Source: Siniperca chuatsi (lineage: Eukaryota > Chordata > Actinopteri > Centrarchiformes > Sinipercidae). From it: a DNA stretch of 64,000 bases. Under the pieces are notes generated by a model. It saw only the letters and a list, made by a program, of their open reading frames with translations. It had not been told where the DNA came from and ran no database searches. Positions 2,441-44,113 of this stretch are shown piece by piece. Both the position numbers and the translations under genes were made by a program. Every line of letters starts with the position of its first letter. Position 1 is the stretch's first letter. The DNA lies in the NCBI RefSeq assembly GCF_020085105.1, contig NC_058063.1:16849262-16913261 (forward strand), in the 5' to 3' direction.

Positions 2441-2698
2441 ATTATCAGGAGACTGAGCATGCGCAAGTATAGCCTTTTATTTTGAAAATTGAAATTCCGG
2501 ATGCTTACGTATTCCTCGCTGCTGACTTGTCACAGGTGTATCAAGCTGCGAGATAATTGCCAACGTGAGTCCTGTTAATTCCGGGGACGCACTGACGGGT
2601 TTTAATGCAAAAGAAACGTTATCGTCCATAAATCTCACCGGTGGGAAAAATAATCTGGTTTTACTTCATAATCAAATATTAAACCAGCTTCACTGATC
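2441..2698 (+). promoter_or_regulatory. Probable promoter and 5' UTR of gene A
   Basis: This segment immediately precedes the first ATG of gene A and is richer in GC and CpG than its surroundings (for example gcatgcgcaa near 2459 and ccggggacgc near 2581). There is no clear TATA box. A possible 5' splice donor lies near 2564 (caac|gtgagt), so an alternative non-coding first exon may exist. Assignment as promoter/5' UTR rests on position and composition only. Confidence 0.4.
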
Positions 2699-5600
2699 AT
2701 GACTGGAGATGCCACGACGGTAAGTCTTGAGTTGTTCAAGTTATCCTCGATTGAACTGATGCAAACTAATTTTAGTGTTAGAGTAGAAGAAGGTTTAAAA
2801 TAGTTTGAAAAAGTGTTGGAAACATGTCTGCTCGGTTATTATTATTTTTTTACTCTATTTCTAATATTAATGTTTATTAGCAGAATGAGGTGGAGGCGGG
2901 CGATCACGGAGAGGGTGCAGCAGCAACAGAGACTGCATCTGGGGAAAGACGACCTGTGAGTACATGTTATAGTAGTAATGGTGGTTCTATTTGTGTTGTG
3001 ATGTAGTAAATTGCATTGCATTGGAGAGTGTTTTATTCTCACATATGCCAGAAATCACTGCAGTGCCTAATCCATCCTCTTCCTCCATGTGTTCCATATT
3101 TAACATGTTATCCTCAAACAGTTAAACAACCAGTTCAATCAGTACAGGACATGAGCGTGGTGTGTTTCCCTGTACTGCTGGGACACTGTTTGCTGGCATG
3201 CAAAGCAAACAAACTGCCAAACACCTAGTATCATGATGTCAGCTGTTCTAAATGTCATCTCTGTGACTGAGTACACGACAGAAAGAATATGCTGTTGTCA
3301 CACTGCGGTTTGAATTCATCATGTGGCTTTTCTGTGCTTTCTTACTAAACTACAGACAAACTTTACATGTATAGTCTGTAACAAATTCAATAATTTAACA
3401 GTTTATTTAAGAGGAAAGCATCAAAAGTAGTCCTACTCATTCTGAAGAACTGTGTTTTCAGTGTTGCTATATCTAACTACTTTGTGTAATGTTGAGTAGT
3501 TTAAACATTTGTTTTGAATATGAACCTTAACCTGCTTTTTTTTAACTATTAACCACCGCCTTCAGATAAATACAGTGGAGTAAACAATATAAATATCTCA
3601 AAATAATGTACTTTATGTACAGGAAAAGTTATGTTCCACCCCTGGAGATGGGAACAATCAAAGAAACAATAGTTTAATGGTGATTTAGTGCAGGATTAGG
3701 CAATAAGTATGATAGTTATTTAAACTTGTCTGTCTAATTTAACTTATTATAATACAATAGAAAAGTACCTGCACAATAGAATTAGAGCTCCGTTTATCCT
3801 TTTTAGTGTTGTTTCGACCCAACACAGGTCTTATCCGGGCAGGCATAGTCTCGTTGATATTTCTGGTATCCAGCACATATCTCAATAAGTTTTTGTGGAT
3901 GTGCAGAAAACTGTTAGCTATATTTACCATATGAGTCGAGCACAATGTGTCATCAGAATTAAAAGCAGCCTCAATTTGTAGTTTTATTCGGGTTTGACAT
4001 ATTTTTGAGTGACTGAATTTTAACCAGCAAAGACATAGTCAACATAATTTTACAGCAATCCAAAAAATATTCCTTTCATTAAGATACAAATTGAGCAATA
4101 TGTTTTTTAAAGAAAAGTTGCTGATTTTCTGTATCTTTTCTTCAGAGTATTGTGAAGCTACAAAATATGCTAAAGAAAGTTTCCCAAAACCCTTTCCATA
4201 ACCAATACAAGGTTAGTGGGCACACACACACAAACACACTTGCAATACAAAATTACAAACTGTCACATACATGCACACTTTCTACATCTCAAAGACACAA
4301 GCTAACACCCACTCAGTCTAAGTACAGTAAGGGAGTTACATTTGACTTCTTCCCTTTCTACAATTCCTGACCCTTATTTATTTTTATTTTTTTGCAGTTT
4401 GTGGATGAATAAAAAAATTAACTGGCTAAATAAATTAGACTCCTGATGATGATGATGATGATGATGTTTATTTTTTCTTCATCTCCCTTCTCTCAGACTC
4501 TTGTTTCATCAACCTCTGACTCCAGTGGCTCATCAGCAAACGAGTCTCGAAACGAACAGGTTAGAGACCAGCTTTCAGCTCTGCATATACACAGAGGTAT
4601 ATGCAGGTTGGGGGTCCTTGTTGAAAAGCAGTATCGTTTCATCAGCTGCAAGTGTTGTCAAATTTGTGTTTACATTTCTGACAAGTGATGCGTGACTTTC
4701 ATATCACAGCAATTCGCAATGCGTGGAAAGCACGATGCGTGTCTTCTCACGCTTCATTCCATAAATATGTTTTGTTCATTTAGCATCATTAATTGATTGT
4801 TTGGTCCACAGGATGGTGAGTTCTTTGGTGATCTCTCAGCTGCTGCTACAGATGTGACAGACAGCCACCAGCTACACCAGGTAAGATTCAACATCTGCAG
4901 AGCATACACGAATGACAATGACGTATGGTACAACTCAGAGACATTATAACCAAGATTTGGCTGAAATGCCTCAAATTTGCCAAATGAAATGCATTATTTT
5001 TAAGCGGTATTTTGCGAAAGTGTGTTAGTTCAGCATCCATAAAGCCATGGTTGAAACTGCTGTTCATATTTTCATAAACGCAGAACGGTTTGAAGACGGA
5101 GGATCATCATCTTCTCTCTGCTGTAGCACAGGTTAAATCCACACCCTTTCTCTTGTTCTTTGAAGTACAATCTGACTTGTGAGATCTTCGCAATGTGTAG
5201 GCGTGTTTGTGTATAAGCTGTCTGACTAGACCTTTCTATAAATAAGTCAGTTAAATGTCGGTCAAAAAAATCAAAATACAAAGTAATAATAAGCATTCAA
5301 ACCTCTCCAAATGTTACCATATTGTTATGAAAAATCATTACATTAATTATTTTGGAAGATGCAACATTTTGTCTTGAGCAGTCTTTGAGACCAAAAGTTA
5401 ATTTCCTGTTTTGCTCATGTGGTATTTGCACTGCCTCCTCCCAACAATGATTCAACATGTAACATTTCTGCTGTGTCACTGTCTAATCCTTTCAGAATGG
5501 AGAGCACGAACAGCTCCATGTAGGTCCTCAGGTATGTTTTTAGATGTTAGCAGTTTTAGCACTCCATCAACAGTCCAAGTGAAATCTAACACCTCATCTC

Positions 5601-8600
5601 ATTTCCCTTTCGTTGTTTATCAGAATGGAATCAATGGGGGTTTGGCCAGAATGAAACCTTTTTATGCATATTCTTTGGTAAGTACACAGATTTCTGTTTT
5701 TAAGACCAGCTCACGACGTTACCTTAACTACCATCATTTTCATTGAACACGTCGCTAATGACTTTGTGTTCTGTCATCAGGAATCGAGCAGCAAAGGTCA
5801 TGTAATGGAGGATGTAGGGAGGAAAACCTCAGAGGTAAACCTCGATACCATCTTTGTCCCGCCACCTGAATTTCAGAGTTCACCTCTGGATCTTCAAACT
5901 GAAATTAAGACTGTGGAAAATGGAGCCCAATTTTCTGAACATCAAAAGGACCTGTTCCAGGCCCTTACCCCCAACCATACACAAGGCCTCTTCCAGACAT
6001 CGACATTAGCCCAAAACGCATCTGCTAACGGCCATTTTCATGACGTAACCCTGAACTCACTAGACTTATTTAATCCAATTCCTGATCAAACACATAATCT
6101 CTCCAAAACCTTGCAGTTAAAAAGCTCTGACCTGTGTAAAAATGATGGGGTCAGTCTTTTCCAGGCTGCTAAAGGAGAGGATGCATTCCATGCTGAAAAC
6201 ACCAGGGAGGTGAATCTCTTTGATAAATCTCCCAGTATTTTTGAAGACCCATTCAAATCTCCTTCAAACAAGGAGGATGATCAGTTCCGGTCTCCACAGC
6301 CTATGATGGCAAACCCATTTCATACTGCCAAGACCAATGAAACTAAAAGTGGGGAACTCTTCCACATCAGGGAAAACAAACAAGATCCCTCTACGAAAGA
6401 GGACCTTTTTGGCATGTCTTTTAAGGAAAACCTGGATATATTTTCATCTTCATCCACAAATGCAGTCGACCCATTCCCAAGCCCGATTACAAGGACTTTA
6501 TTCCAAAGTGTTTCCAGTTTGGATGACCCGTTTGGTAATACGCCCTCAAAACAATACGACCCTTTCCAAGATGTTTCAAATGGGACTTTCAAATTTGATC
6601 TCTTCCAACCACTTCCCTCAAAGACTAATAGCAATATATTTGAGAGAAACCCCAGCAATACTGCCTATAAGGCCACATACTCTACACCTTCACTCAACAG
6701 TCCGTCAGAAATGAAGATGGACATGCTATCGTCACCAGATCTCTTCAAGGCAACGCCATCAGAATCTCATCCAGCCATCCAACCAACCTCTTCCGACAGG
6801 CCACATGCTGCTGTTTTGACGACTCCTCAGGGAACTAGACATGATAATCTTCAGCCAAGTCCCTTCAGTCGGGCCAGGAATCTGTCTGTGTCATCAAGGC
6901 AATCTCCAGCTGAAATGGCTCATGTATGTAACAAGTACCATTTGATATTTGAACCGCCATAAAATCAATATTCAATGCTAATAGATTGCACTTTGTAATT
7001 GTGCATTGTTGAGGGCCCCACTGTACTGTAGGAAACATCTAGTCAACCAATTGCTCAATTTATATGACATGCACTTTATACCTTCTTTTATAATCAAACT
7101 TGCAGGTGCAGACCTTCAAACGTCCGCCAAAGCCACTTCCTCGAATTAGATCACCAAGAACGGAAAAACCACCCACACCAGCAAACCCTGTATGCAAAGA
7201 ATTCAGTTTAGCATAATGCTGCTCACTCATTTCTCTGCTACTGTAACTGATGTGCTGTTAATTACCTTCTTTGTCTCTTTTGGACTGTTTAGATTGAACC
7301 TGAACCAACTGTACCAAAAACTTCTCCTAAGCCAGCCTTCAGACCACTCCCAAAACCAGTTATTCACCGCCAACCAAAAACTCCGGTATGCATGCTGTTG
7401 AAATTTGACCTAAATAGCTGTCCTAATTAGCTTGGGCAACAATATGTTTTAGGATATTGCTCTAAATATCTAATGAGGAGCAATGTAAAAGGTCATATGT
7501 GTGGGTAGTTAGTGTAGCTGTTAGACTGTGGATATAACATCATCTTTCTGTGGGCATGTTTCAAGTACTTCTTTTTTACAGGAAAGTAAAACGACGGACC
7601 CTGAGAACTATGTTGTCTTTGAGGACGTCCTGCTTATTGGTCAGGTGTGTTTTTAAGCAAAAGTGATTTTCAATATTAATTACAAAATGTATAAATTTAA
7701 ATATATTAACAAATTGATGGGGGGAAAAAAGTCACTTTGATAAAAGCAGAGAGAAACATCACTGAAAGTCTAAAGATATGATAGCGGCCCTGAAGCCTGC
7801 GATGTTCATTATACCCAATAATATGAACATGTTGGATGGTATAAATGTTAGTAGTTGTAGATTTACAAATTTTGGCTAATGGTGAGAGAAAGGCAATGGG
7901 GTCATTGAAACCAAATGGGTTTATCCCATTGGGTGTATGAATGTCCTCAGCAAATGTGACGGCAATCTGCCTCTTAGATAATGAGATATTGTGTATGCAG
8001 AATTGACATATTGGCCTGACAATGCCACAAGGCAAAGAGTTTCCAAAATGGAAATTAGTTATCCTCAGGGGAGCATTAATGTGCTTAGTTAAATTCAATG
8101 GCAATCTAATTTTGGCATGTGTGTTTTACAAGAGGGAATTTTGGTTTGATGGTGGCATTAGAGGAAAAATCTTGATGAAAAATGCCAATCGAGCAAACAG
8201 GAGTGAATATACAGATGGGTGACAAATTAAAGGAAAAACCGACATGAAGTGTCTTAGCATGGGCCTCCAGCCTCCAGAACAGCTTCAGTGCTCCTTTTCA
8301 AGATATGTTTCTCCACTCTTTTATTCAGGGTTTTCCTTTAATTTGTTCCCTGTCTGTATCTCCTCTCGAAAAGTTTTGGATGGATGGACATGGATGAAAC
8401 TGTCCATCATCACCCCTCTTAGACCCTGCTGCTATTGAAGGAAAAATATGCATATTGTATGTTGGATTATTTTGAAAACATTTTAGAAGCATAACTGTCT
8501 ATATAAAATGTTTGCTTTACTAAAATCCCAAAACAGGAAAGGTGTGTTGAAGACTGGCCTGAAGACAGCCCTGAGCTTAACCCCGACTTCAGACCAGTAA

Positions 8601-11600
8601 AAAAAACATTTTCAAAATTCAATTCTTTCATCACATTCTCTCTGAATATGTTGGCATACTACCTTGAGTTCTCAGCATTGTTCGCTATGCAAAATTAATG
8701 TTCTGTCAAAGACATTTCAGCTAATGAAACGTGTATTTGTTTTGGGGTTTTTTTTTTCTTCTTCTTTTGTTCTATAAGTCTGGAACATTGAGACTACGGC
8801 GAGAATCATTGAAAGTAAGAGACAAGTTATTTCTCTAGTTAGCATTGTTTGTTTGTAAGCAGAAAGAAGAAGCTAAAAAAAGCTAACCTTTCTCTTAGAT
8901 GAAGGCAGACTCTGATGGAGGAAGTGGGGAGGATCAGGATAGCCCTGGGAGTCACGGCAAGGTACTATCTGAGAGTCTCACTCATCAGTCACTATTAGAC
9001 TTTCTGTGGTTGTTATCAATATATTATCCAGTATATTGTTTAACATCCTTTTTTTCTTTTTACAGAAAAAGGACAAAAAATTCAGAATGTCCCTACTTTC
9101 CAGAAGAGGGTCAAAGGTAAATGAAGCAATGCAAAATAACAGTTTCACTGATTTGATTGTATTTGCATGTTCATCTTTATAAGGTGACGATTTCACTTTG
9201 TAGGAAAAGTTTGCTGATGACACAAAGGAGGGGAGGAGCGGGACACTACCCACCAATCGTAAATCATCAAAGGTAACAATCAGGGTGTCTGGAATCAAAT
9301 GTAAATCGTGTAAGCATGTGACAGTAAGCCTATTCTTAACATCATTATCTATTATTCGATATTAGTATTAAAACTGTAATGTGTTATTGCATCAAATGGG
9401 CTAGGGTGATCTCTTACAAGCTTTTAATGGTGAGTCCAGATACAGTGTGAAAGATTGAGGTAGTACAAATATATTCAAATAGAGGAAGCAGCATTATAGG
9501 AAGCACAAATAAAGGCAACTTAAACTTGTGTTAAAAATAATTCATCCTGAGTGAGAAACTCAGTGGTTTGAGCCTCATCCCCACCTATTTGGAATTTCTT
9601 TCAAACACGGAAGATAAACTCAATCATGTTTTTCTTGAATTGTTTTGAGTGATGCTAGAAGTCCAGTCAAAGAAGTGGACTGACGATAAGTTTAGCAATT
9701 AAAAGACAAATCACCGACTGCTTGCTATACTGTAAAGCCAATTAAACACTTGATCCAGAAGTGAAATCTGCTCAAATTAATCAAGACAAACATTATTGTG
9801 GCATTATATCTGAACACACCAGTGTGTTTTTATAATGGCACTTGCTCAGTTTTAAAAGTGAGCGCTTCTGTTTTTCAGGAGTATATTCCAGATATGCACA
9901 TGTTTGCAGGAGAGAATGAAGATGGGGAGCAGAATGGGATGGACTATAAAGTATGTTTTTGTTTTTTAAACAGTTTGTTGTTTCTGTATGAACACTATTA
10001 ATAAAGCAGTATTGGTTTAATAATGTGTTCTTTTGTCAACAGAAGAAACCTCTGAAGACCAAAGTCAATCGGCTGCTTAGAAGAGCATCCACCACTTCCG
10101 CCATGCCAGAGGGAAAGCACATGAACAGACATTTACCTCAAGAATCAAAGGTAAGTTATCTGAAGTGTGTGTGTGTGTGTGCGTGCGCGTGCGCGTGTGT
10201 TTTCCATGGAAGATTCATCCAAGCAAACTGACACATCCTAGCCATCCTATAGTGTGTCTGAAAAGCTTACACACACAGGACTTCTTACATCAATACTGCA
10301 GTTCTGATGCCTTTTTCTTTGTAATTCCACAACAGGATGATGACATCAATAAGAAAAGCGTTGGCAAGAAAAACTCCATCATACGCCGATGGTCAGAGGT
10401 AAAGTAGTCACAGACTGCAGTCTGCCAACTGTTTATCAAACTAGTTGGATCCTGAATTGTCTGCTGCAGACAAGGTGCAAGAGGGTGAGGGAAAATGAGC
10501 TATCAAATTCAAATGTGCTTTATTGGCACGCTATGCTTTGAACCTTCATTTCAAATTCCGAAGATTATCTCGAGCATTAGTGGCTCAAATTCTCCCCAAA
10601 TGCTTGTTTTTTGTGTGTTTTTTCCCCCCTTTTCTAAGTGCTGGAAAAAGTAATATATTGTTGTTGTTTTTTCTCAATATTGTACAGTCTTGGGAAGAAA
10701 TTGTGTACATGCTTTAACTCCTTAAAGGCAAATATTAGTCTTCCTAAAGAGTTTTTGATGCAGGTTTTCATTGTCAACAGGGGACCGTTTTGGATGGCAG
10801 CACTGGTGAGGAGGAGGAGGAGGGATGGGAAGCCCAGCATGAAGAGGTTGTGAGCCATGGATTTGTATGCTTTTGTTATACGCACATGACCATTCAGCCT
10901 ATAGAAGTTGTAGTCTGTAGATGCTAATTTTGAATAAACTTTCTTAGAGAGAGACTTTAGATATTTTTGAGAAAGGGAGAACTGTGAATATTCTGTCATG
11001 CACTGATTTGGGTAATCTAATCTTTTCTCTCTTCAGAAGAAAAAAAAGAGTGTGAAAATCAGGTTTGTGCCACAAAGAGGATTTGCCATCAGTGTAGAAA
11101 AGGTATCCCACCCCTACTGTACTTTATATTTCGCTATTTCACAGCATATTTGTTTACACCTTAATGAATGTGTGTCATGTTACAACTTTTTCTCTCCAGA
11201 AGGATGATGAACCGAAGGGAGCACATGGATACACACCTCGCAAAGGCTCAAAGGTATGACTGTATTCACGTGAGAATATGTGTGTGCTTTGCTCGTGCAT
11301 TGTACTTCCGGTATGTGGATGGTCTAGGTGGTGTAACATGTTTGGAATTTTTTTTTTCTCTCAGGAGAAATCACAAGATGAAATTTTGGGTGCACATGGC
11401 TACACACCTCGTAAAAAGTCCCAGGTAACAGTCACCTTCACTTCCGTTGACTCAACATTTAAACAATAAGAAACGATATGTCATAGGACAATGACCAATG
11501 ACCATTCCCTCATTGTCTAATATGAGAGTGAATGGTCTGATTGTTTCCTGTGAATCATTTTTATGCCTCTGCGGCAGTGATAGCCGTGGCCGAAGGCATT

Positions 11601-14600
11601 ATGTTTTGGGGTTGTCCGTGTGTTCATCCCATTCTCATGAACACGATATCTCAGGAACGCCTTGAAGGAATTTCTTCAAATTTAGCACAAACGTCCACTT
11701 GGACTCAAGGATGAACTGATTAGAAGTTGGTGATCAAAGGTCAAGGTCACTGTGACCTCACAAAACACGTTTTTGGCCATAACTCAAGAATTGATGACCG
11801 TATTTTACAGTTGGTCGGACACTGAATAGGTGACACTTGACTCAAAGGTCATTATGACCTCAAAACAGATTTTTAGCCATAATTTAAGAACGAATTGGGC
11901 GATTCCAGATTAAACACACATGTTGATTGGGACGACACAATGAATAAACAATAACTAGCACAGTACGGGCTTTCCTCCATCTCGTCCATTCTGCCTTTCA
12001 CTTCCTGCCTCATTCTGAATGTCGAGCATCATCGGAATCGCGTGACTGCAAACCGTGAGCGAGTGAGTTTCACCTACAGCCCATAGAGCGGCTTTGCATC
12101 TAAAAATGCCAGGAGAAAACAAAAGCACCGCATTTTGTGTAGCTATACTCTATAAGAATCCATCTTTACATAGTAATCAAGTACATGTGTACCTATTTAG
12201 CCAATACATCTATGATAATCCTTCATTAATCAGTTTAACAACGTATATTCACTGGAATCATACATATGTATCATCAATATAGTGATAACTTCCACTTAGC
12301 CAAAAAATACTTTTTTTTTTTTTTTTTTAATTCAACTCCTTCACTACATATTTTATGAGTCCTGACAGAAATGGATGTAAACTGTAACTTGACTGGTTGG
12401 CGGAGGCATACAACCTCGGGGCGGTAATTCTAGTTGGAGATGGCCTGGTTTATTTATGTTAAGTTTAGCTTTTTTTCAGTTAGCATAGCAAATCCACTTC
12501 CATAACATCAAATGACTTCATCACTTGTTTTGTTCTGAAGCAGCTTTGTTTTTCCACACTCTCACTCTTAGGATGATACTTTTGAGGATGTAGAGGAAAT
12601 GAAAGGCCACAGTCTTCAGTCAACTAGCAAGGTTCTATTTTCTTATTGTTACCATTATATGATATCATGTTGTTTAACAAAAATGTACATTTATTTATTT
12701 TATTGTGAATATACTGTAGTTATCTTCTGACTTGACTCGTGCTTGAAAATAACTAATATTCCATACTTTTTTTTTTTTTTTTTTTTTAACCAGAAAATGT
12801 GGTTAGATGTCTAGAAACAGGGCATATCATTTTGCAGTATCTCTTCTATGTTGCATGGTTTTCAGCGTACCTCTATAATTTCAACATTCCTGACTTGCCT
12901 ACCAAGACTAAAGGTTGTTTTGAATATGTTACTTAGGCTGCTTTCATGGATGATGAGCTCTTAGAGAAAACACTCCATATGTCTGCTGGATTGAATGGAG
13001 ATGAAGATCCATATGGAATGGAAGACTGGAAACCTGTAACTTTCTTCTCTTTTAATACTTTTTTTTTTTTTCCCTTGAACATTTTTGTTGTCTGTTTTCA
13101 CTTTATGGGCTTTTTTTCTTTTGTCAATAGAAGAAAACAACCAAGATGAAACTGCTGCACATGGATCGTCGAAGCTCTAAGGTAAATATTTTTCTGCGAA
13201 ATGTTTGGTTGCAAGGCAATGGGAGATTAAAGACATTGTTTTACTTAATTTGGGTTTTTCATAAATGTATGAATGTTATTGTTGTTTTGTTTTTTTTAAA
13301 TTAGGACGACATGCTGGACTACAACAGTCCTCAGAAAAAGAAGGGCAGTTTCTCGGCAGAGGAGTTAGACGATGAAGACCTAAACGGGGTGGAGGACTGC
13401 AAAGTGGTATTTTTATATCTGAAACCAATATTTTTGTTACAGTGGCACCAGTAACAGGCTGACAGCAGCAGTAGTAGAAGCACATTGTAACTGCTTTGTA
13501 GAAACACCATGTGATGCAATGAAAAGAGCAATGAGGGCACCAATCATTTTGACAGGATAGATAGGAAACAATAGAGAAAATAACTGCTTGTGCTGTCAAA
13601 TGCATCATTGTGCTAAATGTCAATTTCAGAGCAGATGTAAACCCTCCTCTAAACATCATATGCAGAAGAGAGGAAGATTCTTTTCCAACTAGATGCCGTT
13701 TGCTTTTGATTTTCTTCCTCCTGACAGCATTTCTTAAGCTTTACTTAACAATATTTTTTGTTTCTTGTGTCAGAAAAAATCCAAATATAAAGTCTCTATT
13801 CCCATCCCACGCAAATCTAAGACCACCAATGGAGAGAGGGAACCGATTGGATTCAGCCAGCACATACCTCAGCAAGCATCCAAAGTATGTTTAATGCACA
13901 ACATAAGCATGTGACATTATTCTAATATACTAATTCAGTTTAATTGTTTTCTGTGGTATTGACTTTATTTCTGACATATTTTAGCAGGATGCCTTTGCTG
14001 AGGATGACATCACTCAAACAGGAAAAGATTTCATGAGTCCTGGAGAGATGTATGACAGCGAACAAGATGAAGTGGAAACCTGCAAACAGGTATTTTTGTC
14101 CCTCTCATGTTCACTTTTACTGCTTTACTTTAAGGTTATTTAATATATGATCCTCAAACATTTTTTTTTTCTTTTCAACAGAAGAAGCCGTTTAAACTTA
14201 AAGGCCTCAAAAAACACAAGGCCAAGGTGAATCAGTGCAGTCTAACTTATTTCTAATCACATGAGGAAAGAGCGATTTTGCTCATATTGCTGTCAGATCT
14301 GTAAAAACAAGATAATGACATGCTCACTTTTCATTATCTCTTTGTCATGCCAGAGTAAAGCCATGCATCAAGAGTGTGAAGATCCACCAGGAGCTACGTC
14401 TAGTGACTACCTGTCAGAGGCCGCTAAGGTAAGATTGAAAATACTGCAAGATATTTAAATAATGAGTCAACGTGTGGCTTACTTAGCCAAAACGTGGTAT
14501 CTTGGATTCTTCTGACAGTTATTAGTAAATGGTCTGTCTTTAATTCTTAGATAAACTTCTCCTTCTTTGGCTCAAACCGGTTAGCATGAATGTCCTAATT

Positions 14601-17600
14601 AATGATCCACTTCTCAGTATTTATCTAACCCACAGCTTTACTTCCTTCGTCTCAAACCATCAAGTCGTGATGTAGCAATACACCGTTTAAGTTTATCAAC
14701 TTCTGTTGATCTTGATAATACATTTTGTTTCGGTCTTGAATTTTCCAGTGAGTCAGACCTGACTAGCTTTATGGAAAATCACCTCTTTGATCAGGTTTAC
14801 AGCATATTACTATTGTAAAAAATGTATTTACTGTCTGCCTATCCAGCACTGACGGCTCTGTATATGTTGGAGTTTTTGAGATAATGTTGAGCTTTGTGTG
14901 GCTTTTTTTTTTTTTCACACTGTGTCCTAAAGCATTTTCCTGAGGGGGAAAAAAAATGAAATGAATACCTATTTTACTATTGTACACTGTTTTGTTCTGA
15001 CCGAGCCTTGCTGAGAGTCGGATTACAAACAGGATTAAAAAGAAACTCTTTTGTTAAACAATTCCTGTGCACAAAAGACCATTTCTCTGTTCCTGATGGG
15101 ACACATTCCTTTGGCATAGGCCAGTTCAGCAACATAGCATACATACTAGGCAACACCAATTAGTGCATAGGCAGGTCTTAATATGTACAAAGGCCTTGGT
15201 TAAATAAATAAAGCCAGGTGCATATGGTAAAGTATGTAGAGGAGACCTATTGACGTCTTCACTGGCTTGTTTTGTCGCCTCCCTCACCCCTCATTCAGGC
15301 GGAGTGGCTGGCTGCTCAGGAGGATGAGCGCACTATAGCAGGTCTCGAGGACGGGGACGAAGATGGGGTCAGTTTCTCTTAAAACTGGCTAAACAGAAAC
15401 ATATTCCACTTCACCATACATTTCCTGTATATGCAAGTGAAGAAAATTCACCTTTTAGTACTGTAGTGCTCAGGTGTGAACCATCATGCTTTTGTTTTCA
15501 CAGGACACTGACAGTTTGATGGAGTGGTGGAACACTGTGGAACGTGAGTCACAACCGAATCAGACAACTGAAACTGGCCAATAAAATAAACACTTGAATG
15601 TCTTTTTTTTTTTTTATTTATTTTATTTTTTAACTTCATTAAGACGTGTTGTTTGATTGTATTTCAGAATGGGATGAGGTGCCATCAGACGACGAGGACA
15701 AAGTCAGAAAAGAGGATGAGTCCAAGTGCGTCTGTTTATATGAATTTGGTGAAAGTAAAAGTGTACTGATCTGGCCAAGTGTGCTGGATGGATTGTTTCT
15801 GCTGTTGCTATACCAGTAGTTAGGGGTGTTGTGAATCAGATCACTGATTGCAACAGGAAAAGTTGTGCTAAATGTAGAGCTGAAACTAATTATTAGTGGA
15901 TCAACAGAAACATAATCTGTAAATATTTTGATAATCAGTTAAACTTTTCAGTCATTATTCAAGCAACATTTGCTGGTCTTAGTTTCTCAAATGTGAGGAA
16001 TTGATGCTTTCTTTGTCATCTGATAGCATACTGAATATCTTTGGTTTTGGACCTAAATAAATTAGATAAGAAGCAATTTGACCCTGGGCTCTGGGAAATT
16101 GTAATTGGCATTTGTCACTATATCCTGACATTTTATAGACAAAACAATAAATCAAGAAAATAATAAAAGTAATTGTTAGTTGTATTGTCCCTTCAAAATG
16201 AAGTCAACTGAAAATATTTAGACATAACCTGCATATGTGTGTTAGATCTTTCTGATAATTGGGTAGCTTTACAAGTACAAATGAAAGCTGTTGATATATT
16301 TTGCAATGACAATTTTGAGTGTGAGAATTTATCCAGCTACTTGATAAATGAGTGATTTATTTCTTACAGGGATATCAGTGTTCAGTGTTCATAGGGAACA
16401 TGTTTTGGGTATAGAAGTTTTTGTAAGGCTTAATAAACATTACATTAGAAAAAAATGGGTTTGGCTTAGCAAAAGGGGTTAAAACTGATCATGCACTACG
16501 TTGTATTATATTATTTAGAAAGTTTACACTACTCTGTAGATCCCTTGATCCAGTCTTTCCTAGTGTAAAGTCAGTGAGTGAATAGAGTATTGCTTTAATT
16601 TCATTGTTTGGCCTTTCCAATCATAAACCACAATTTAAGGTGCTGCTTCCTTATTCCGTACTGTACTTACCAAGAATAACATTGCTTTGTCTACCAAATA
16701 CATCTCAGGTCATTCACCATCTTGGCAGACAAGGTTCATCGCGGCCTGCGTGTCTTCAACAAGGTCTTTACAGAGCGAGCTGAGGTCCTCTGGCAGTCCG
16801 TCATCACGCTCCATGCCATCGCCGACGGCATCAACAATTTCCACCACAAGGCCAAGATCGCTGGCATCACTGGTGGCACGACCACAGCCGTGGGTGGTGT
16901 AACAGCCATCGCCGGTTTGGCTTTGGCACCCTTTACTTTTGGTGCCTCTCTCATAGTTACCGCCGTTGGTGTGGGCGTGGCAACGGCTGGCGGAATCGCT
17001 TCAGCCTCTGCGGCCATCTCGGATAACGTTAACAACATGCACGACCGGAAGAAGGTAAGCTGCAATTTTACTGGCAACATTTCGTATAAATAAAATAAAA
17101 AAGGGACAGATGCACACTCATAACTCTGATGCACTTATTTCAACTAATAAAGATCCAACATTTCAGCAAACTGCCCCCTTCAGTTTGCTGAAACCTTCTT
17201 CTTTATTCTTCTTCTCTAATCTCTCTTATTTGAAATAAACGCATCAGTTATGAGTGTGCAGCTTTCCCATTCATTTTTTTTAACGTCTGCCTGCGAGCCA
17301 GAACCTCATTGGAATATGTGTGCATTTTCCCTCAGATTTTTATTAACATTTCGTTTCAATGCAGGAAGTAGTGTGACGTTCTTTTAACGCTGCAAACAGT
17401 TAAAAGTGCGTGACTGTGACACCGGTGACCAAGACTGACACCCTGTCCCATCTCATGCGTTAACTTACCATTGACTTTTTCAGCCTTTAACCAAAGACTG
17501 TGGTCTTTCCCTCTCCTTCTGTAGGTGGAGACAGTACTGAAAACATATGAGGCTCAGCTGCTGGACATTGGGAAGATCCTCCACTTTGTCAATCAGGGCT

Positions 17601-17929
17601 TGTACAAACTCCGTGGCCATCCTCTCCTCAGGTCTGGCACCCAGCACTACTCAGAGGACTGGGAGATCCGCAGAGCAGTCCAGATGATCAGCTTAGTCGA
17701 TCAGCCCGTGATGCGAGCGACCGAGGTAACAGACGCGGCAGTTGCCTCGGTCCAAGGACTCTTCAATGGCATGGACAAGTACTTCATCAAGGACTCCAGA
17801 GAGCTGAAGAAAGGCTGCAAGAAAGAGGTGGTGAGTCAAATAAAGGTGGTGGCGAATGTGCTCAATGATGGGGTAGTGGAGCTCAATGCCATCAGAGAGG
17901 AGCTACAGGATGCTACTGGAAACATGTGA
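2699..17929 (+). CDS. Gene A: APOL-domain protein with long endocytic-motif-rich N-terminal arm
   Basis: I read 37 coding exons giving about 1,380 aa: 2699-2719, 2884-2955, 4146-4211, 4497-4559, 4812-4880, 5084-5131, 5496-5531, 5624-5677, 5781-6923, 7106-7189, 7293-7385, 7582-7644, 8537-8596, 8779-8814, 8899-8961, 9066-9116, 9204-9272, 9879-9950, 10043-10150, 10336-10398, 10781-10846, 11037-11102, 11200-11253, 11365-11424, 12572-12631, 12937-13035, 13131-13181, 13305-13406, 13774-13884, 13988-14089, 14182-14226, 14354-14428, 15299-15367, 15504-15543, 15668-15725, 16709-17054, 17525-17929. The first 33 are phase-0 symmetrical; the 40-nt and 58-nt exons before the APOL domain change phase. Order: acidic/Ser-rich start, NPF exon, large DPF/DLF exon (aa ~144-524), proline-rich part, acidic/basic cassettes (aa ~637-1075), W-W motif, APOL domain (aa ~1131-1380). 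APOL proteins usually have only a few hundred residues, so the N-terminal arm is exceptional. Cellular role is not known from the sequence; individual small exons may be alternatively spliced. Confidence 0.85.
4146..4211 (+). other. Gene A exon 3: NPF-motif exon
   Basis: This 66-nt phase-0 exon encodes N-M-L-K-K-V-x-x-N-P-F. NPF is the classic ligand of EH domains (Eps15, EHD family). The exon is recognisably related to the repeated NPF exons of gene B (M-L-K-x-V-M-Q-K-V-N-P-F), so it probably represents the ancestral cassette shared by the two genes. Gene A exon 8 (5624-5677) appears to be a degenerate second copy with K-P-F in place of N-P-F. Confidence 0.7.
5781..6923 (+). other. Gene A exon 9: large disordered DPF/DLF/NPF-rich exon
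   Basis: The 1,143-nt exon encodes 381 residues with low hydrophobicity and many Ser, Pro, Asn and Asp. Seen directly: four DPF tripeptides (EDPFK, VDPFP, DDPFG, YDPFQ), one NPF (ANPFH), five DLF (KDLFQ, LDLFN, EDLFG, FDLFQ, PDLFK) and several related x-L-F or x-I-F motifs. In clathrin adaptors and accessory proteins (epsin, Eps15, AP180, stonin) DPF/DPW and DLF bind AP2 appendages or clathrin, and NPF binds EH domains. Spacing is about 15-30 residues, like those proteins. Function by analogy is inference. Acceptor tcatcag and donor CAT|gtatgt are clear. Confidence 0.8.
7106..7385 (+). other. Gene A exons 10-11: proline-rich PxxP segment
   Basis: Two phase-0 exons (7106-7189 and 7293-7385) encode a Lys/Arg/Pro-rich stretch with several P-x-x-P cores flanked by basic residues, for example K-R-P-P-K-P-L-P-R and F-R-P-L-P-K-P. 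Such sequences are typical SH3-domain ligands, as found beside DPF/NPF motifs in endocytic scaffold proteins. Binding itself cannot be judged from sequence. Confidence 0.65.
7582..8596 (+). other. Gene A exons 12-13: acidic linker pair
   Basis: Exon 12 (7582-7644) encodes E-N-Y-V-V-F-E-D-V-L-L-I-G-Q and exon 13 (8537-8596) encodes E-R-C-V-E-D-W-P-E-D-S-P-E-L. They read as one continuous acidic module interrupted by an intron of about 890 bp, and the composition (aromatic and aliphatic residues in an acidic context) suggests a short linear binding module. I do not recognise the family. Confidence 0.5.
8899..14428 (+). other. Gene A exons 15-32: repeated acidic/basic exon cassettes
   Basis: Eighteen phase-0 exons of 45-111 nt alternate in charge. 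Basic exons start with two or more Lys and usually end in S-K: 9066-9116 (KKDKKFRMSLL), 10043-10150 (KKPLKTKVNRLL), 11037-11102 (KKKKSVKIRF), 13131-13181 (KKTTKMKLL), 13774-13884 (KKSKYKVSI), 14182-14226 (KKPFKLKGL). Each is preceded by an Asp/Glu-rich exon, several ending in a lysine-containing DYK, WKP or CKQ. Exons 23 and 24 are an obvious duplicated pair sharing G-A-H-G-Y-T-P-R-K. The pattern implies serial duplication of a two- or three-exon unit, with all units symmetrical so copies can be gained, lost or skipped without changing frame. Function is unknown; the basic helices could contact acidic lipids. Confidence 0.7.
11566..12434. repeat. Dispersed teleost repeat inside intron of gene A, with two ERE palindromes
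   Basis: The segment between exons 24 and 25 begins with tgccgaaggcattatgtt-like sequence and ends with ggcggaggcatacaacctcg, both of which I recognise as characteristic of a dispersed fish repeat. It contains two perfect estrogen-response-element palindromes (AGGTCA-nnn-TGACCT) at 11744-11758 and 11846-11860. Family name and exact borders cannot be fixed without a repeat library. Confidence 0.55.
15504..15725 (+). other. Gene A exons 34-35: conserved W-W segment preceding APOL domain
   Basis: Exons 15504-15543 (40 nt) and 15668-15725 (58 nt) encode E-W-W-N-T-V-E-Q-W-D-E followed by a strongly acidic stretch. The first exon has the same length and phase as gene B exon 30656-30695, and the second corresponds to 30784-30829. 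This Trp-rich segment is therefore ancestral to both genes and forms the hinge between the disordered arm and the membrane-active domain. Confidence 0.75.
15872..16180. repeat. Dispersed repeat (copy 1; second copy near 57.1 kb)
   Basis: Sequence beginning gagctgaaactaattatt and containing tttctcaaatgtgagga and gaatatctttggttttgg matches, with divergence, the segment at about 57119-57390. Two copies 41 kb apart plus the familiar wording mark it as an interspersed teleost repeat. Here it lies in the intron before the APOL-domain exons of gene A. Confidence 0.6.
16709..17929 (+). other. Gene A apolipoprotein L domain (exons 36-37)
   Basis: Exon 36 (16709-17054) encodes an amphipathic helix pair followed by a Gly/Ala/Val-rich hydrophobic hairpin (about aa 1182-1235) with the turn L-A-P-F-T-F-G-A-S. 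The hairpin is flanked by charged segments and ends in H-D-R-K-K. Exon 37 (17525-17929) encodes predominantly helical sequence including E-L-K-K-G-C-K-K-E and ends at TGA. Hydrophobic hairpin, A-P-F turn and the D-R-K-K-V boundary are the APOL family signature, the region linked in mammalian APOLs to membrane insertion. The stop (ATGTGA) overlaps a strong donor-like gtgagt, so an alternative C-terminus is possible. Gene B shows the same domain. Confidence 0.85.
17108..17262. repeat. Palindromic MITE-like element in the last intron of gene A
   Basis: Outer arms gcacactcataactctgatg (17112-17131) and catcagttatgagtgtgc (17242-17259) are inverted copies. At the centre a 13-bp perfect stem at 17161-17173 and 17181-17193 (tttcagcaaactg / cagtttgctgaaa) encloses a 7-nt loop. 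The whole can fold as a nested hairpin, as in small non-autonomous DNA elements. Confidence 0.6.
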
Positions 17930-20879: not shown

Positions 20880-21722
20880 TAATCTAACGCTTCTGACGTC
20901 CGCCTCAGTTTTTGCCAAACCGGTTTGACGTATCTACGTAATGAAGGGGAAATGAAGGACTGCGTTGAACAACTTTTCGAACTTGTTTACCCAGCGTTTT
21001 TTGTTTGTTCTTTAGTTTTTTTCTGTCTCCACGCGGAGGTAGGCACCCTGCTCTTTGTGTTCTTGCTGGCGTTTTGTGTTGTCAAACATTCCTGTGTAGT
21101 GACAGACACAGTGTACGATGTTGTTTGGCACTGTATGTGACGTTCTTTTGTGTGAGAACGACACGAGATAAACTGTGTTCAAAGTTCCTCCGATTTAAAG
21201 GTTTCTTGCCTTTTTACTAACGTAAGCGTTGCAGAAAGCGAATTCAAGACTATTACCACTCAGTTGGACATATTTGTCAATTCGGCGAAATCCTGTTTAC
21301 CAAAGCATCACTTGTACTAAGACAACCACACTTTTAGAATTAGCTTGCTCAGATTTCACTCGGGCTTTTTCAACTTATGGGTGGGAACTAGCTAAGTATT
21401 GTGACCTAAATACAGTGGAAATATTACTGAAAATGCGATGTATGATGGGTCTGATTTTAAACCGATTTTTATAATATAAGGGAAGTTTTCACAAAAGCAC
21501 TCAACTCGTACTTAACGAGTTTTGCAAGTTACCAGTTATACAGAACATGTTAAATAGTCAAATATTGGAATGGAATTTGGTGTGTGGAACCATCCAGAGA
21601 AAAGAGCAGCAGCGACCTTGGCAGCTGATGACAGCTTTAAAACACTATTGTTTGTTGTTTATTTGGAGCCATGTTTTCTTGCCACATCGCATCCTAACAT
21701 TTAAAACACCATTTATTTCAGC
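20880..21722 (+). promoter_or_regulatory. Probable promoter and 5' non-coding exon of gene B
   Basis: Local CpG enrichment (20885-21065), two TGACGT half-CRE-like words (ttctgacgtccg, tttgacgtatct) and a GGGGAAATGAAGG word at 20946-20958 that resembles an interferon-stimulated response element lie upstream. A plausible non-coding first exon ends at about 21036 (cgcggag|gtaggc). It would splice to the acceptor tttatttcag just before the ATG at 21723. All regulatory readings are weak inferences from short words. Confidence 0.35.
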
Positions 21723-24700
21723 ATGAATATGTTAAGAAGCGATAAAGGCTCAACAGCCCCAACTCCAGAGGTCACATCTAGACCCAGCAAGGAGGTACGG
21801 AGTGTGACAGAGTGGTCAAGGCTAGTGGGATACTTTGTTTACATGCTTTATTCCATTAACTGAGGCCTTCATTCATCTCCAGGATTTAGACAACCCCATC
21901 ACGCACAGCCTGAACAGTCAGGATGCAGCAACGGCCGCAGCCGCGCAGGTGAATGTGCAAACCCGCAAATACACAAAGTTCTCTCATTTTGTCATATTTT
22001 GACTGTAATTATTTCTTGTAGGAAACCAACAGTGAGGTCACAAGTGAGCTTAACCCTAAGACCAAGGTGAGAACAAGTCACAAATTTGTAATATCTTTTC
22101 TACCATTCTGACACACTTACCTGACCTTATTTATGTTTTTTTTAGAGGACCGGCGTGACGGGAGTTGTGCAGAAGGTCAACCCATTCAAGTCTATTTCAC
22201 AGGTAAAACATGATAAAATTAAACCGTAATTGTCATACTTTGGACTACTTAATGTAAAATCATGTTAATAAGCTTTTGTTTTTTATTCAGGCCCCCTCCA
22301 CGGTCAGCAAAGCTCCTTCCTCTGAATCACCAGAACAGGGAACAGACGCCACGCAGGTGAGAAGAACTCAAATGTAACTTATGTGCCGTTACTGTACAGG
22401 ACAGGTGGGTGACCAGCATGGTCTGGGAAAAGTATTTTTTTGTTTATTAAAAGCAGCTCTGTAGACGACATTTGCAGTACCCTACACAAGTTTTAAAGAG
22501 TAAGCCTGACTCATTTGTATTAAACATGAAGTGTCAAGATTGTGTTTTTAGTTATGTTTTTACCCAAGATTTTTACTTTTCCTCATTTATTCTGACAAAA
22601 ACGTGAGACAATAAGAGATGTAATAGCATTTCAATGTAAAACGTTACTATTAACTGATTACAAGAATTGAATAACGTCAGTAGTCACTGCAAAAAAGCAT
22701 AACAGTAAATATGCCATGCCTTTCTTATGCCAGATGTAGTTCTGTGTTTTCTTCCCAAACAACTCCACTTTCGTCTCATCCGTCCATAGAACATTCTCCC
22801 AGTAGTGTTGTGGAGTATCGACATGCTCCAGGGGTGCAGCAATGGGTGTTTTTTTGGAGAGCAATGACTTCCTCCGTGGTGTCCATGACAGGACACCTTG
22901 TCTTTCAAAGTTTTGCGTATGATGGACTCATGAACAGAGATGTTCACTTGTTAACCTGTTCCAGTGTTCCTTAGGCCTTTGGCTGTGACTCGAGGGTTCC
23001 TTTTTTTACCACGTATAGCATTCTTCGTTGTGCCCTTGCAGTCATCTTGGCTGGGCGTCCACCTTTACAGAGATTTGCGACAGTTCTCAGTCGCCGCCAT
23101 TTGTAGACAACTTGTCTGACTGTGGATGGATGAATATCAAGAATTGTTGATGGGTCTGTAACCCTTTCCACTTTTATATAAATCAATTATTATTGATCGA
23201 AGGTCAAGAGAGAGTTTGATGTCACACTTCCTCTGTGTGTGTTGTCATCCAAGCGTTTGTTTTTTGTTTCGGTAGCCGGTCCGGCCAAGCGTGCATGTTA
23301 GCCTGCATGTTAATGCATGTGAGTCCCTCCCTGTGAAACTGTTGGCTTTGAGGAGAGTGATATAACAGCTGTTTCTTTTCTCATCTAACATGGTGAATAA
23401 ATGATTTATTTCAACCAAACCAGAGTTGGTGATTGTTGGAACAGTGGAAAGACTAACAAAAATGCTTTTGGTGAGTTTTATTTTGTTTCTCTCCAGTTTG
23501 AATGAAGTATGTTTTCCAAAGATCTGCGAGGTAAAATTATTGTTTTGATAAGTGGAGTCTGGTAGTGAGCAAGAGCGATAAAACAGCTGTTTCTGGTTAA
23601 ACAAAGATAATCTTACTCTTTAACAAAAAGGTGTCTCTGTAGAGATCATTTCCAAAATGTTGTCAGACACTTAGAATGAAGTGTGTTTTACGATGATCTG
23701 CGAGGTAAAATTAATGTTTTTCTCAATGGAGTCTGGTGGGCATAGCGCCCATTTTGAGATGCTGGTGCTCTAGTGCGACATGTAGTGGCAGTGAATGTCC
23801 CATACAGGAATTTAATGATGTATTCAATATGGACAAGTGCATTGTGGTTGTTCATTGTTGTAACTTAGATGGAGATCAGGCAATATTTTAAGACATATTT
23901 ATAAATAAATGCAAGTAATTCCAAATGGTTCACTCTCTTTTTCTTGGCACAGTATGTGGCTTATATTCCATCTGGATTTTATTTGGATACGAGACACTTG
24001 AAATGTCAAGTGGAAACGGGACCTTAGTCATTTCAAATAAGCCACAGTATGGATGTTTTTTTGTTTATCATGCTAGGTGATTAACTTCAGTCTTCAGCCT
24101 TCAGTCAGTGCCCCAGCTGTAAATTCCTTTAATACAGCTATAATGTAAATGAATAGGAGTAGAGGACTTGAATTGGGAATTGTAAGTTGAGTGCATCAAT
24201 TTATGAAATATTTGAAACTTGTATTTCAGAACCGTGGTATGCTGAAAGGGGTCATGCAGAAGGTCATCCCATTCAATAATTCCAGTACATTCAAGTGAAA
24301 TCTGTTAAAGTGTATCCAAATAATAAGCCCTGGGTTACAAAGCCACTGGATTTTGCCCCCTTTTTTTTTTTTTCTTTGATGAACAAAGTGTGATCAGGAA
24401 CTTCCAGCATAGCAAAGCCAGAAAGGGCCTAGGGCCAGACAGCATACTTTGTCATTTACTCAAGTCATGTGCTAAGCATCTAGGCCCTGCCTTCTGTAAC
24501 ATATTTCAAATGTCGCTTTCAAACAACAGACAGTGCCTAACCTCTGGAAGCAGGCCATAGGTCCTTAATGACTTTAGTAAATGAGTTGCGACAAGTGTGA
24601 AAAGTAAAAACTAGATTATAGGAATCAGACAGGCTGGTCTGGCCAATTATTCAAAAGACAAGTCCTGCAGAAAGCCCATGCCATCCTTCTTGATGTCGAT

Positions 24701-27700
24701 CACCACGTAGAGTTCCAGACTCCTCCACCTCAGGTACCCGTTTTAAGGTACAGAGGACTAAAACAACTAGCGGTTGGAACAAATGAGTGCTTGTGTCTAT
24801 TAGCTTGTTAAATACACTCACCAGCCACTTCATTAGGTCAATCTTCACTTATACAATCTAATTACAGCTCTGCTATAACTTCTGCCTTTACAAAGATAAT
24901 AATGTTCAGTTTTGATTGACACTGTCAGAGGGGTATTAATTTAACTACATGTTTATTTCTGAGGTGGAAGTTTGCAGTGGGGTCGAACCGTACTGCATTA
25001 CATTGAGAGGTGTTTCTAATGTTTTGGCCACCCCATTTACATACACGAGAGGGCCAGAATATTAGAAACACCTGCCAATATAATGCACTCCACACCACCA
25101 CCCACTACGACCTCAATAATAAACATAAAGTGGAATTACTACGTTTCTGACAGTGTCAACAAAAACTGAAAAATTATAAGCTTCATAAAATTAGAATTCA
25201 TGGCAGAGCTGTTGAAGTGACCGGTGAGTGTAGATTGCACTCGCACTTTGCTGTCGTAATGCTTTACTGTAATGCAATTTACCCTAGACTACAACCCACT
25301 GCAATATGTGTTTGACTATGTCTTTTTAACCTCTGTATTGTCCTGTGTGCTGTGTATTGCTGTGTTGCTCTTGGCCTGTGAAATAATTGCCCTCTGGGAT
25401 CGTAAGTTTGAAATGTACTTTGTTTGAACAAGTCTACCGCTCAGGTAACCACAGCTTTGTCTGCATGTTATAATGGTAACAATGGTAATGGGAGTATCTG
25501 TGTCAGAAAATAAGGCGTCCACTCAGCTGGTTTTCTCACACAGGTCTCTAAAGCTCCATCTTCAGAGTCACTGGAACAGGGAAGGGTTTCAGACTCCAAT
25601 CAGGTGGGTGAAAGATGATTTCCCTTATCCAGAATCAAAAAGCTTTAAATATAGACCCCAGTATACATGGCCAATTAATCAGACTTCTCTAGATTATTAA
25701 TCTCTTAATTTGAAACGCATTTTATTCTGAAATAGGGAACAACTGGAGATTATTCAAAAACGCCACAGCAGTGACTTCGTTAGTGCCAGGAAAAAGTCAG
25801 ATTAACTCTACATACTGTAAATGTAAATTACTTGTGTCCCCAGTAATAGGCTCTTTTTAAATTTTCAGTCTGTATATGCCAATGTATTTTACTTGATGGA
25901 GCACAGGATGACCTTGTGTGGTTGTGTTTCAGACCCCTGGTATGTTGAAATGGGTGATGCAGAAAGTCAACCCGTTCAAGCGTTACACACAGGTACCTTC
26001 ACTGTACATTTAACATGAGCTGACCAATGACCCACGAATCATTTTAAGAGGCAACGTATCAGGAAAAACTGACTTAAATATGCAACTGTAGATCTGAGCT
26101 TTTGATTTGGACTAATTGACACAACAGCCTTTTTGAGATGGTGCGATTAAGTGAAGCTTAGTATTTTGATGTCTAGATGACACTTCGCTACTACCTTGAT
26201 ATTCTGAAATTGACTTTAACCTCAAAAGAATCAAAAAGCAGAATTTTTTTTAACTCAAACCTGAATCAGGTGTCCGGTGCCTATATCAAGTCTAAAAACA
26301 AATGAGTTCTGCCAGTTGTATTCCCTATTTGTCCCTTTTCATTGGTTTCATAGAAGTAAAACTGTAAAGACCAGTCAGGGAGGTAGCTTTATATTAATGA
26401 ATTGAAGTTCACACAGTGGTGCAAAATATTAGGTTGTTTTTATTTTGAGCATCTTATGGGTTTTTTCCCCTGACTATCGTCTCTTGGCTGCAGGTGCCAA
26501 AGAGCGATACTGAAAATGATTCTGCAGATCCACCAGAGACAGGAAAAGAACTTCAAGGCAAACAGGTAAACATGATCTGCTCTACTGTACATACTAAAAG
26601 TCATAATTGACTTGCAAATTTGCAGCTTGTTCATATGGCAGTGTGATTAGTTGAATTTGTTATGCTTTGACTTCAACTGTCCAATTAATGTATTTATTAT
26701 TTAGAATCCAGGGATGATTGCAGGAATGATGCAGAAAGTCAACCCATTCAAATCCTCACAGCCAAAGGTACCAGTTGTACTACTGATGATGCCACTCAAT
26801 GGATGTTTGGGAGAGAAAAAGTTTCTTATCGACTTAACTTTTCTAGACATTATTAACACACCAAGGAGCCCCCTTCTGCACATCCTCAGTTTGTTTGTCT
26901 CTGCCTTGCATCTTGTCTCTCCAGGATACCCGGCCTCTGCACAGTGACCTCTCCTCCAGCAGTGGAAGCTTAGCAGAGAATACCGACTTGCCAGAGAAGC
27001 AGGTAGATCTGTGCAATTAAGCACTTTGTCAAAAAGCCAGACCCCATCAGGTTTTTCTTTTTTTTTTTTTAAGTGATCGTAACACGTTAACATTTTATGC
27101 ATGTCAACTACCTAATTTGGAGTAGGGCAACCCTTAGTCTTTAGATTAGCTTCATGCAGTCATGTTTGGATCAGTTGAATTGGGAGTATTTACTAAATTA
27201 ACCAGTCCAGTCGGTTCGTGTGCAATCTTGGATTCAGGGACCTTCATGAAGCTTTGCTCCATGTAGTTCTATAAATAATCAGAATAGTATTTAATAATCG
27301 CACACAGAGAAAACATAAGCCATAATAACTGATAAATTGGTTATTATTCTTGCTACTACCACCAGATGGTGCCAAATAAAAGAATGAGTCTTTTATTTAC
27401 TGTTTTTTGTCCACCTCCTGACTATTGCCTATATGGTGAGGTTGTTTTTCTACAGTTTCTGCTGTGTCATAAATACAGAAAAAAGGCAATGAAGTAAATA
27501 ATCCCATTCTGTTATTTGTGTAATTTTTGTATTTGTTTTAGAACCTCGGGATGTTCAGAGGGATGATGCAGAAAGTAAACCCCTTTAGGTCTTACACACA
27601 GGTACTCTGTCTTAATCATGTCGACTTCCGATTTTGTAATTGCAGGTTAAGTTTGCTTAGAAAAACATTTGATGACTGAGACAGTTGATTACCAGTTTTT

Positions 27701-43859: not shown

Positions 43860-44113
43860 CTGTATTTTCTCCTCCACAACCCCCAACGAGAGTAGCTTAC
43901 CACTGGACAGTTGTAAAATGTTTGTGAATGCAGTGTTGTGACAAACTGTCACTTATAGACTATGTTCAGTGGGTATTATGTTTTAGTAAAATATTTTGCC
44001 TTAAAATATGTTCTAGAGCTCACCTGATACAATCTGTTACCACGCAACTAACTGTAGATGAAGTGTCCCATTATATTATTTAACTGAAAAATCTTACCCT
44101 ACCCACTCTAGGT

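Follow-up and report, generated by a model that had tools for sequence, protein, structure and literature searches.

A predicted Siniperca chuatsi gene joins an APOL domain to a long arm with clustered DPF and DLF motifs

Background

The ordinary role of APOL proteins inside cells is debated, with traffic and membrane remodelling being favoured in recent reviews. For human APOL1 and APOL3, control over vesicle traffic and over the fission of membranes has been described (PMC11726835; this and the other publications cited here are represented by parts of their text), and knock-down of zebrafish apol1 leads to kidney filtration defects (PMC4492502). Among endocytic adaptors, the disordered region of Dab2 carries DLL/DLF peptides for clathrin, DPF/DPW for AP2 alpha, FxDxF for AP2 beta and NPF for EH domains (PMC12370899). 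Eps15 likewise has many DPF motifs, and the EH domain of POB1 binds NPF as well as DPF (PMC2238750). EHD1-type EH domains prefer acidic flanks next to NPF and also bind DPF, more weakly (PMC13282721). Here we analyze a predicted gene of the fish Siniperca chuatsi, called gene 1, in which an APOL domain follows an arm of about 1,100 residues that is rich in such peptides. It lies beside a tandem sister, gene 2, in a stretch of 64,000 nucleotides (the window, C22:16849262-16913261) taken from a genome assembly of 719 Mb in 65 contigs.

Results

A single exon chain leads from the arm into the APOL domain

An initial annotation of this DNA had described a continuous chain of exons joining an arm to an APOL domain, and our gene model bears this out. 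Gene 1 runs on the plus strand from an ATG at 2699 to position 17929 and comprises 37 exons with 4,161 coding bases for 1,386 residues; the single stop is the terminal one, and all 36 introns, with lengths of 84 to 1,190 bases, are of the GT-AG type. Codon usage, trained on exons 9, 36 and 37 together with the APOL exons of gene 2, favours the predicted frame in 29 of the 34 small exons (the exceptions are exons 13, 14, 16 and 29, with exon 4 tied to two decimals), although a stop closes another frame in many of them (18 and 27 of 34). At the end of the chain, ATG TGA shares letters with a donor-like ATgtgagt (boundary after AT), so that a further 3' exon is possible and the C-terminus of the model is not fixed.

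Residues 1113-1269 match positions 7-169 of the 298-position Pfam profile of the ApoL family (PF05461) with E 3.9e-22. The score of 79.5 bits compares with a gathering cut-off of 25.9, which makes gene 1 a member of the family. The remaining APOL part of gene 1 aligns to gene 2, which itself matches profile positions 45-297. Since the match spans parts of exons 34 to 37, we count the WW linker DTDSLMEWWNTVEQWDE within the APOL part. Kyte-Doolittle values above 1.4 are confined to residues 1194-1241, which form the predicted membrane-insertion stretch. The same scan finds no N-terminal hydrophobic stretch in gene 1 or gene 2, and for this reason the arm would be expected to be cytosolic. Judged by its sequence, gene 1 is a real new variant of APOL, known as a predicted gene.

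The best evidence that arm and APOL domain form one gene comes from gene 2, where counterparts of either end of gene 1 recur in an unchanged order: NPF exons at the N-terminus, then the WW linker and APOL. When 33 gene 1 exons, each 10-60 residues long, are compared with the gene 2 NPF module, the best match is exon 8 (0 of 2,000 shuffles), followed by exon 3 (13) and exon 31 (154). With 33 tests corrected for, the match of exon 8 holds up; that of exon 3 is borderline when taken alone, though this exon carries an NPF and sits in the right place. Moreover, a phase-1 and a phase-2 intron precede the APOL exon in both genes, and the APOL parts share 40% identity. One predicted gene is supported by this agreement.

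We regard it as very improbable that the chain merges two genes, an adaptor-like one supplying the arm and an APOL gene. A few features of the model nevertheless lean that way and so against a single protein. The introns include 34 of phase 0, one of phase 1 and one of phase 2, but as the exons were picked by reading and partly by eye, this phase-0 excess is partly selected and not an unbiased statistic. Nine donors (exons 6, 10, 13, 15, 21, 22, 25, 26 and 28) score below zero on a simple scale, so that the boundaries of some small exons are uncertain. Finally, the ratio of observed to expected CpG, whose two highest values among 68 windows of 500 bases lie near both gene starts (0.93 at 2501-3000 and 0.84 at 21001-21500), reaches up to 0.69-0.77 elsewhere, both APOL exons being among these windows: it is also raised at 16501-17500 (0.74-0.77) and at 11501-12500 (0.69-0.70). 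The former rise, however, includes the APOL exon, and gene 2 has a comparable value of 0.75 over its own APOL exon. Against a merger also stand the conserved order and intron phases of gene 2, the two module matches and a frame that stays open across 36 introns without a stop. Separate genes for the arm and the APOL exons had been named in advance as the outcome that would speak against the fusion; nothing found in the sequence indicates such a division.

Searches outside the family gave little for the APOL part. Its five PDB sequence matches (E 0.027 to 0.49), the best two of which are bacterial pore-forming proteins aligned over the hydrophobic stretch, are read as composition rather than as relatives. 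Five viral-contig loci match only 31 to 44 residues of the same stretch and are read as chance. Exon 9 has no match among the viral contigs and none in PDB by sequence.

DPF and DLF motifs cluster in one exon of the arm

Ahead of the first APOL exon the arm comprises 1,136 residues with two NPF, four DPF and five DLF motifs, exactly the counts given in the initial annotation. The four DPF of exon 9 (381 residues) were reached by 1 of 20,000 shuffles (mean 0.18), its five DLF by none of 20,000 (mean 0.15). This clustering is far from chance, and exon 9 thereby presents the grouped DPF, DLF and NPF peptides typical of Dab2/Eps15-type adaptors. For the arm as a whole, its two NPF were equalled by 45 of 5,000 shuffles.

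The arm had also been called rich in PxxP, which holds locally: all six PxxP begin at residues 531-580, where exons 10-11 are close to one third proline (19 of 59 residues). It does not hold for the total, since six PxxP stand against a shuffle mean of 6.1, and the arm has neither class I nor class II SH3 cores (0 of each). There is one PxPxPR, a pattern listed for the SH3 domains of CIN85/CD2AP (PMC8728146); 177 of 10,000 shuffles reach one.

Further downstream, the net charges of exons 13-33 range from -9 to +8 and mostly alternate in sign, a spread that none of 10,000 shuffles reached. Residues 605-1104 contain five RRx[ST] motifs where 0.17 were expected (0 of 10,000 shuffles). Part of this array has visibly been duplicated: exons 23 and 24 are duplicates with GAHGYTPRK in common (synonymous difference pS 0.48, nonsynonymous difference pN 0.14), and exons 19, 27 and 31 share their acceptor flank and start at the DNA level.

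The NPF module of gene 2

The upstream part of gene 2 consists of four exons of the GMxxGMMQKVNPFK type with serine-rich exons between them. With a fifth, dead copy included (Table 1), NPF is found in four of five module copies. None of 20,000 shuffles of the 333-residue arm reached four NPF, and neither DPF nor DLF occurs in it. Copies b, c and d differ among each other by pS 0.51-0.98 and pN 0.14-0.23, copy a differs from these three by pS 0.61-0.85 and pN 0.23-0.26, and the dead copy by pS 0.38-0.73 and pN 0.18-0.24, all values resting on short stretches of 14-18 codons. The low pN of the dead copy suggests that most of its protein sequence was kept until its death.

An amphipathic helix was considered for the module and rejected, the hydrophobic moment being clearly above shuffles in only 1 of 18 copies (exon 3, 16 of 2,000). 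Separately, an intron of gene 2 contains broken frames on the minus strand (22658-23186) that by eye resemble a relic of a Tc1/mariner transposase.

Other APOL loci in the same genome

The genome yields 13 Pfam ApoL matches, corresponding in our reading to some ten genes or fragments. C13 and C22 have two each, C21 has four, and C8 and C3 have one each. The C13 genes form a tandem pair in the same orientation. Over the two APOL exons, the second of them shares 74% and 72% identity with gene 2. The APOL domain of the first is equidistant from genes 1 and 2 (47.6 and 47.7%), so that what ties this gene to gene 1 is its position and the linker DVENLMEWWNTVE. The pair may have originated by whole-genome duplication.

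Ahead of the C13 APOL copies we find module exons (GGMFSGMFKKSPKP, GIFSGIFKKTPKP and similar), mostly KK(S/T)PK-like, and partner exons of the ELSASNDSLSEN kind, with eight pattern matches on the plus strand and none on the minus strand. A profile scan of 64 kb gave 27 plus and 16 minus matches, the best 14 per strand being examined. Two of the best 14 on the plus strand, 11322 and 35470, fall outside the arrays and were removed; with the NPF exon included, the count comes to 13 copies (four before the first APOL and nine before the second). One of these, at 49093, has a score of 16.8, which is within the noise given the best minus-strand score of 18.7, and was retained for its place and exon context. 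Apart from 23926 and 49772, all copies form a clean phase-0 exon (11 of 13). The window pair and the C13 pair thus share an exon module that carries different peptides, an example of short motifs changing inside duplicated exons.

Some further observations concern these loci. The last exon of the second C13 gene (C13:7019787-7021568) is open for 594 residues and has a long charged tail rich in K, E, R and S, which is absent in gene 2. On C21 the minus strand holds three APOL frames and one partial frame (4127467-4151748); separate frames of about 200 residues in their vicinity (HKLDDVLSYRKELQEALCCYTADTL) may be N-terminal exons of these, and a cluster of phenylalanine motifs was not found in the C21 APOL region. 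C8 has a single APOL copy (16529950-16530567) with a LRALADSLERVHHGTT stretch, which we presume to be closest to the mammalian APOLs.

Possible function and partners of the arm

As a tentative proposal, to which we give slightly less than an even chance, gene 1 would encode one cytosolic protein of ~1,390 residues whose arm serves as a multivalent tether delivering the APOL domain to coated or early endosomal membranes. The arm, long and presumably disordered, would precede the APOL membrane domain, and its DPF, FxDxF, DLF and NPF peptides could engage AP2 appendages, clathrin and Eps15-type EH domains, while PxPxPR may engage the SH3 domains of CIN85/CD2AP. The N-terminal NPF would sit in a repeated hydrophobic-plus-basic module of which only some copies have it. 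Basic exons might rest on acidic membranes and, as RRxS is a sequence preferred by kinases, phosphorylation there could release them. Brought to clathrin-coated or early endosomal membranes in this way, the APOL domain would insert into the bilayer or help to remodel it. This would fit the part ascribed to APOL1 and APOL3 in vesicle traffic and fission. If true, an APOL fused to coat- and EH-binding motifs would indicate a membrane at which an APOL works, and this could be tested in fish.

The surroundings of the NPF motifs bear on the choice of partners. In genes 1 and 2 the residue following NPF is H, K or R in six of six cases and acidic in none (gene 1 reads HNQYKT and HTAKTN, gene 2 has K or R), so that the acidic residues expected after NPF in an EHD1-type ligand are lacking in both genes. 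EHD1-type proteins therefore appear less likely partners than Eps15-type EH domains, AP2 and clathrin, and we dropped a recycling partner of the EHD1 type as first choice. Our guess shifts accordingly from recycling endosomes via EHD to coated pits and early endosomes via AP2, clathrin and Eps15-like proteins. The initial annotation had left both destinations open. Of the two, a role at coated pits seems plausible from the motifs: the single predicted gene and a DPF/DLF cluster beyond chance speak for this reading, whereas the variability of NPF, its flanks as far as EHD1-type proteins are concerned and the unenriched PxxP speak against parts of it.

Several other observations also weigh against a role in coats. 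The single NPF and the single FxDxF of exon 9 are within chance (reached by 3,152 and 2,685 of 20,000 shuffles, respectively). One of the 13 counted C13 module copies has an NPF (SKPPGAMTKLNPFRSAK); from these sequences, NPF is a variable element of a repeated module rather than the hallmark of a clade, and either some copies acquired it or it disappeared on C13. As the pN of the dead gene 2 copy is also low, part of the low pN among the live copies predates that copy's death. A Pfam search of gene 1 with matches admitted up to E 1 yields only ApoL and, below the cut-off, a Chalcone_3 (E 0.19), and thus no folded adaptor domain. Lastly, NPF has an unrelated receptor as well, POLE2 (PMC12808100).

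With these points in mind, the fusion could be real and the arm a fast-evolving disordered spacer that lengthened as symmetric phase-0 exons were duplicated. The spacer would have no function in coats, and its phenylalanine motifs would be for a different partner or for none at all. We consider this possible but rather unlikely. The duplication itself is visible, and there are large differences between the arms of the paralogs: DPF and DLF are missing in gene 2, and most C13 modules have no NPF. In addition, tblastn (E up to 20, best 30 matches) finds no credible counterpart of gene 1 exons 9-33 in the regions fetched from C13 (64 kb), C21 (50 kb), C8 (25 kb) and C3 (26 kb), which is a weak negative since disordered sequence diverges fast; the best match is charge-driven, to a K/E-rich tail (E 2.6e-4), and is followed by the linker. 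Such a spacer would not, however, account well for a single exon with nine D(P/L)F cores, far above shuffles, nor for the fact that each of the four live copies in gene 2 has kept its NPF while changing at many synonymous sites.

A role in immunity is also conceivable, with the APOL domain disrupting or coating the membranes of intracellular pathogens or of the vacuoles that hold them, the arm used for clustering or delivery and endocytic partners being secondary. The number of APOL genes or fragments in the genome (about ten), the tandem duplication, the F5/8C and C-type lectin domains further along the window and the pathogen-linked membrane events proposed for mammalian APOLs in reviews (PMC13177371) would agree with such an effector. 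Yet neighbouring lectin domains do not show a common function, and the motifs present in exon 9 are suggestive of coats; overall we think this reading unlikely.

Returning to the tether, its fullest version would make gene 1 an APOL-based endocytic adaptor: a Dab2/Eps15-like tail would take the membrane-inserting APOL domain to clathrin coats and early endosomes, and phospho-switchable basic patches would keep it there. Such an architecture would have originated in a single tandem APOL gene of fish, through duplicated exons and the acquisition of the D(P/L)F exon. In this complete form we find the proposal doubtful.

Other features of the window

Beyond gene 2, threonine/asparagine/alanine repeats (NATAAG) at 44084-44638 and 45988-46257 may belong to a secreted mucin-like protein. 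The second repeat copy is shorter and lies 1.6 kb further on; the coding pieces flanking the repeats (44669-45353 and 46288-46955) are near-identical duplicates. Three F5/8 type C frames, which we take to be fucolectin-like, are found within 51546-55984 (51546-51836, 52635-53093 and 55027-55395; Pfam F5_F8_type_C_2, E 1.3e-11 to 4e-16). A weak C-type lectin match follows at 56175-57829 (Pfam Lectin_C, 19.5 bits where the cut-off is 22.6, E 0.0017), with a second exon-like frame.

Table 1. Coordinates of gene 1, gene 2 and associated features in the window
Feature	Position	Strand	Basis
Possible promoter at the start of gene 1, CpG-relieved	2501..3000	.	CpG observed/expected 0.93, GC content only 0.40
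Gene 1 exons 1-8, residues 1-143	2699..5677	+	Exon chain
Gene 1 exon 3, first NPF	4146-4211	+	Match to gene 2 NPF module
Gene 1 exon 8, KPF version of the NPF module	5624-5677	+	Match to gene 2 NPF module
Gene 1 exon 9, residues 144-524: 4 DPF, 5 DLF, 1 NPF, 1 FxDxF	5781..6923	+	Shuffle test
Gene 1 exons 10-11, proline-rich, PKPLPR (PxPxPR) at residue 532	7106..7385	+	19/59 residues proline
Gene 1 exons 12-33, short, mostly alternating acidic/basic; five RRx[ST] in residues 605-1104	7582..15367	+	Charge and motif shuffles
Gene 1 exons 34-35, WW linker DTDSLMEWWNTVE-QWDE, phase-1 then phase-2 introns	15504..15725	+	Start of ApoL match; linker and phases same in gene 2
Gene 1 exon 36, APOL core with hydrophobic stretch (residues 1194-1241)	16709..17054	+	Pfam; Kyte-Doolittle; 49-50% identity to gene 2 exon
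Gene 1 exon 37, C-terminal APOL part, TGA 17927-17929	17525..17929	+	Exon chain
Gene 2, tandem APOL paralog, 629-residue model, linker DEEGLLAWWRTVEGWDE	21723..33016	+	Pfam ApoL E 1.9e-36
Gene 2 NPF exon a (VNPFK)	22146..22202	+	Exon model, copy comparison
Dead NPF-module copy: IPF, in-frame TGA, without donor	24230..24298	+	Copy comparison
Gene 2 NPF exon b (VNPFK)	25933..25992	+	Exon model, copy comparison
Gene 2 NPF exon c (VNPFK)	26705..26767	+	Exon model, copy comparison
Gene 2 NPF exon d (VNPFR)	27542..27601	+	Exon model, copy comparison

Comparison with known systems

Among the matches listed in open-licence PMC text, we found no paper on an APOL with such an arm, or with NPF, an EH domain or clathrin/AP-2 apart from one co-mention by chance, and the words fish and clathrin are absent from the searched text of two Pays reviews. 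Gene 1 may well be annotated in fish databases under a generic name.

With the mammalian APOL1-6 (PF05461) gene 1 shares the ApoL domain and its hydrophobic stretch. To our knowledge, mammalian APOLs are without such a long arm. In human APOL1 and APOL3 as described, helices flank a transmembrane hairpin and the N-terminal domain is short and helical (PMC11726835), whereas about 1,100 residues precede the domain in gene 1. Zebrafish apol1 (ENSDARG00000007425) is also a fish APOL gene, but is described as a single locus of 2.6 kb, with no arm mentioned in the part of the source considered (PMC4492502). The EHD-binding proteins MICAL-L1 and Rabenosyn-5 have NPF in common with genes 1 and 2; their NPFs, however, precede acidic residues (PMC13282721). 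The likeness to Dab2 and Eps15 lies in the dense DPF, DLF and NPF motifs of a presumed disordered region (PMC12370899; PMC2238750).

Adaptors of that class carry a folded domain that binds cargo or lipid, such as PTB, ENTH, EH or muHD. Gene 1 differs in having no PTB, EH or other adaptor domain, ApoL being its only Pfam match above the cut-off. Overall, gene 1 tests as a member of the ApoL family and, because a folded adaptor domain was not found, is not an endocytic adaptor by membership, though it may work like one.

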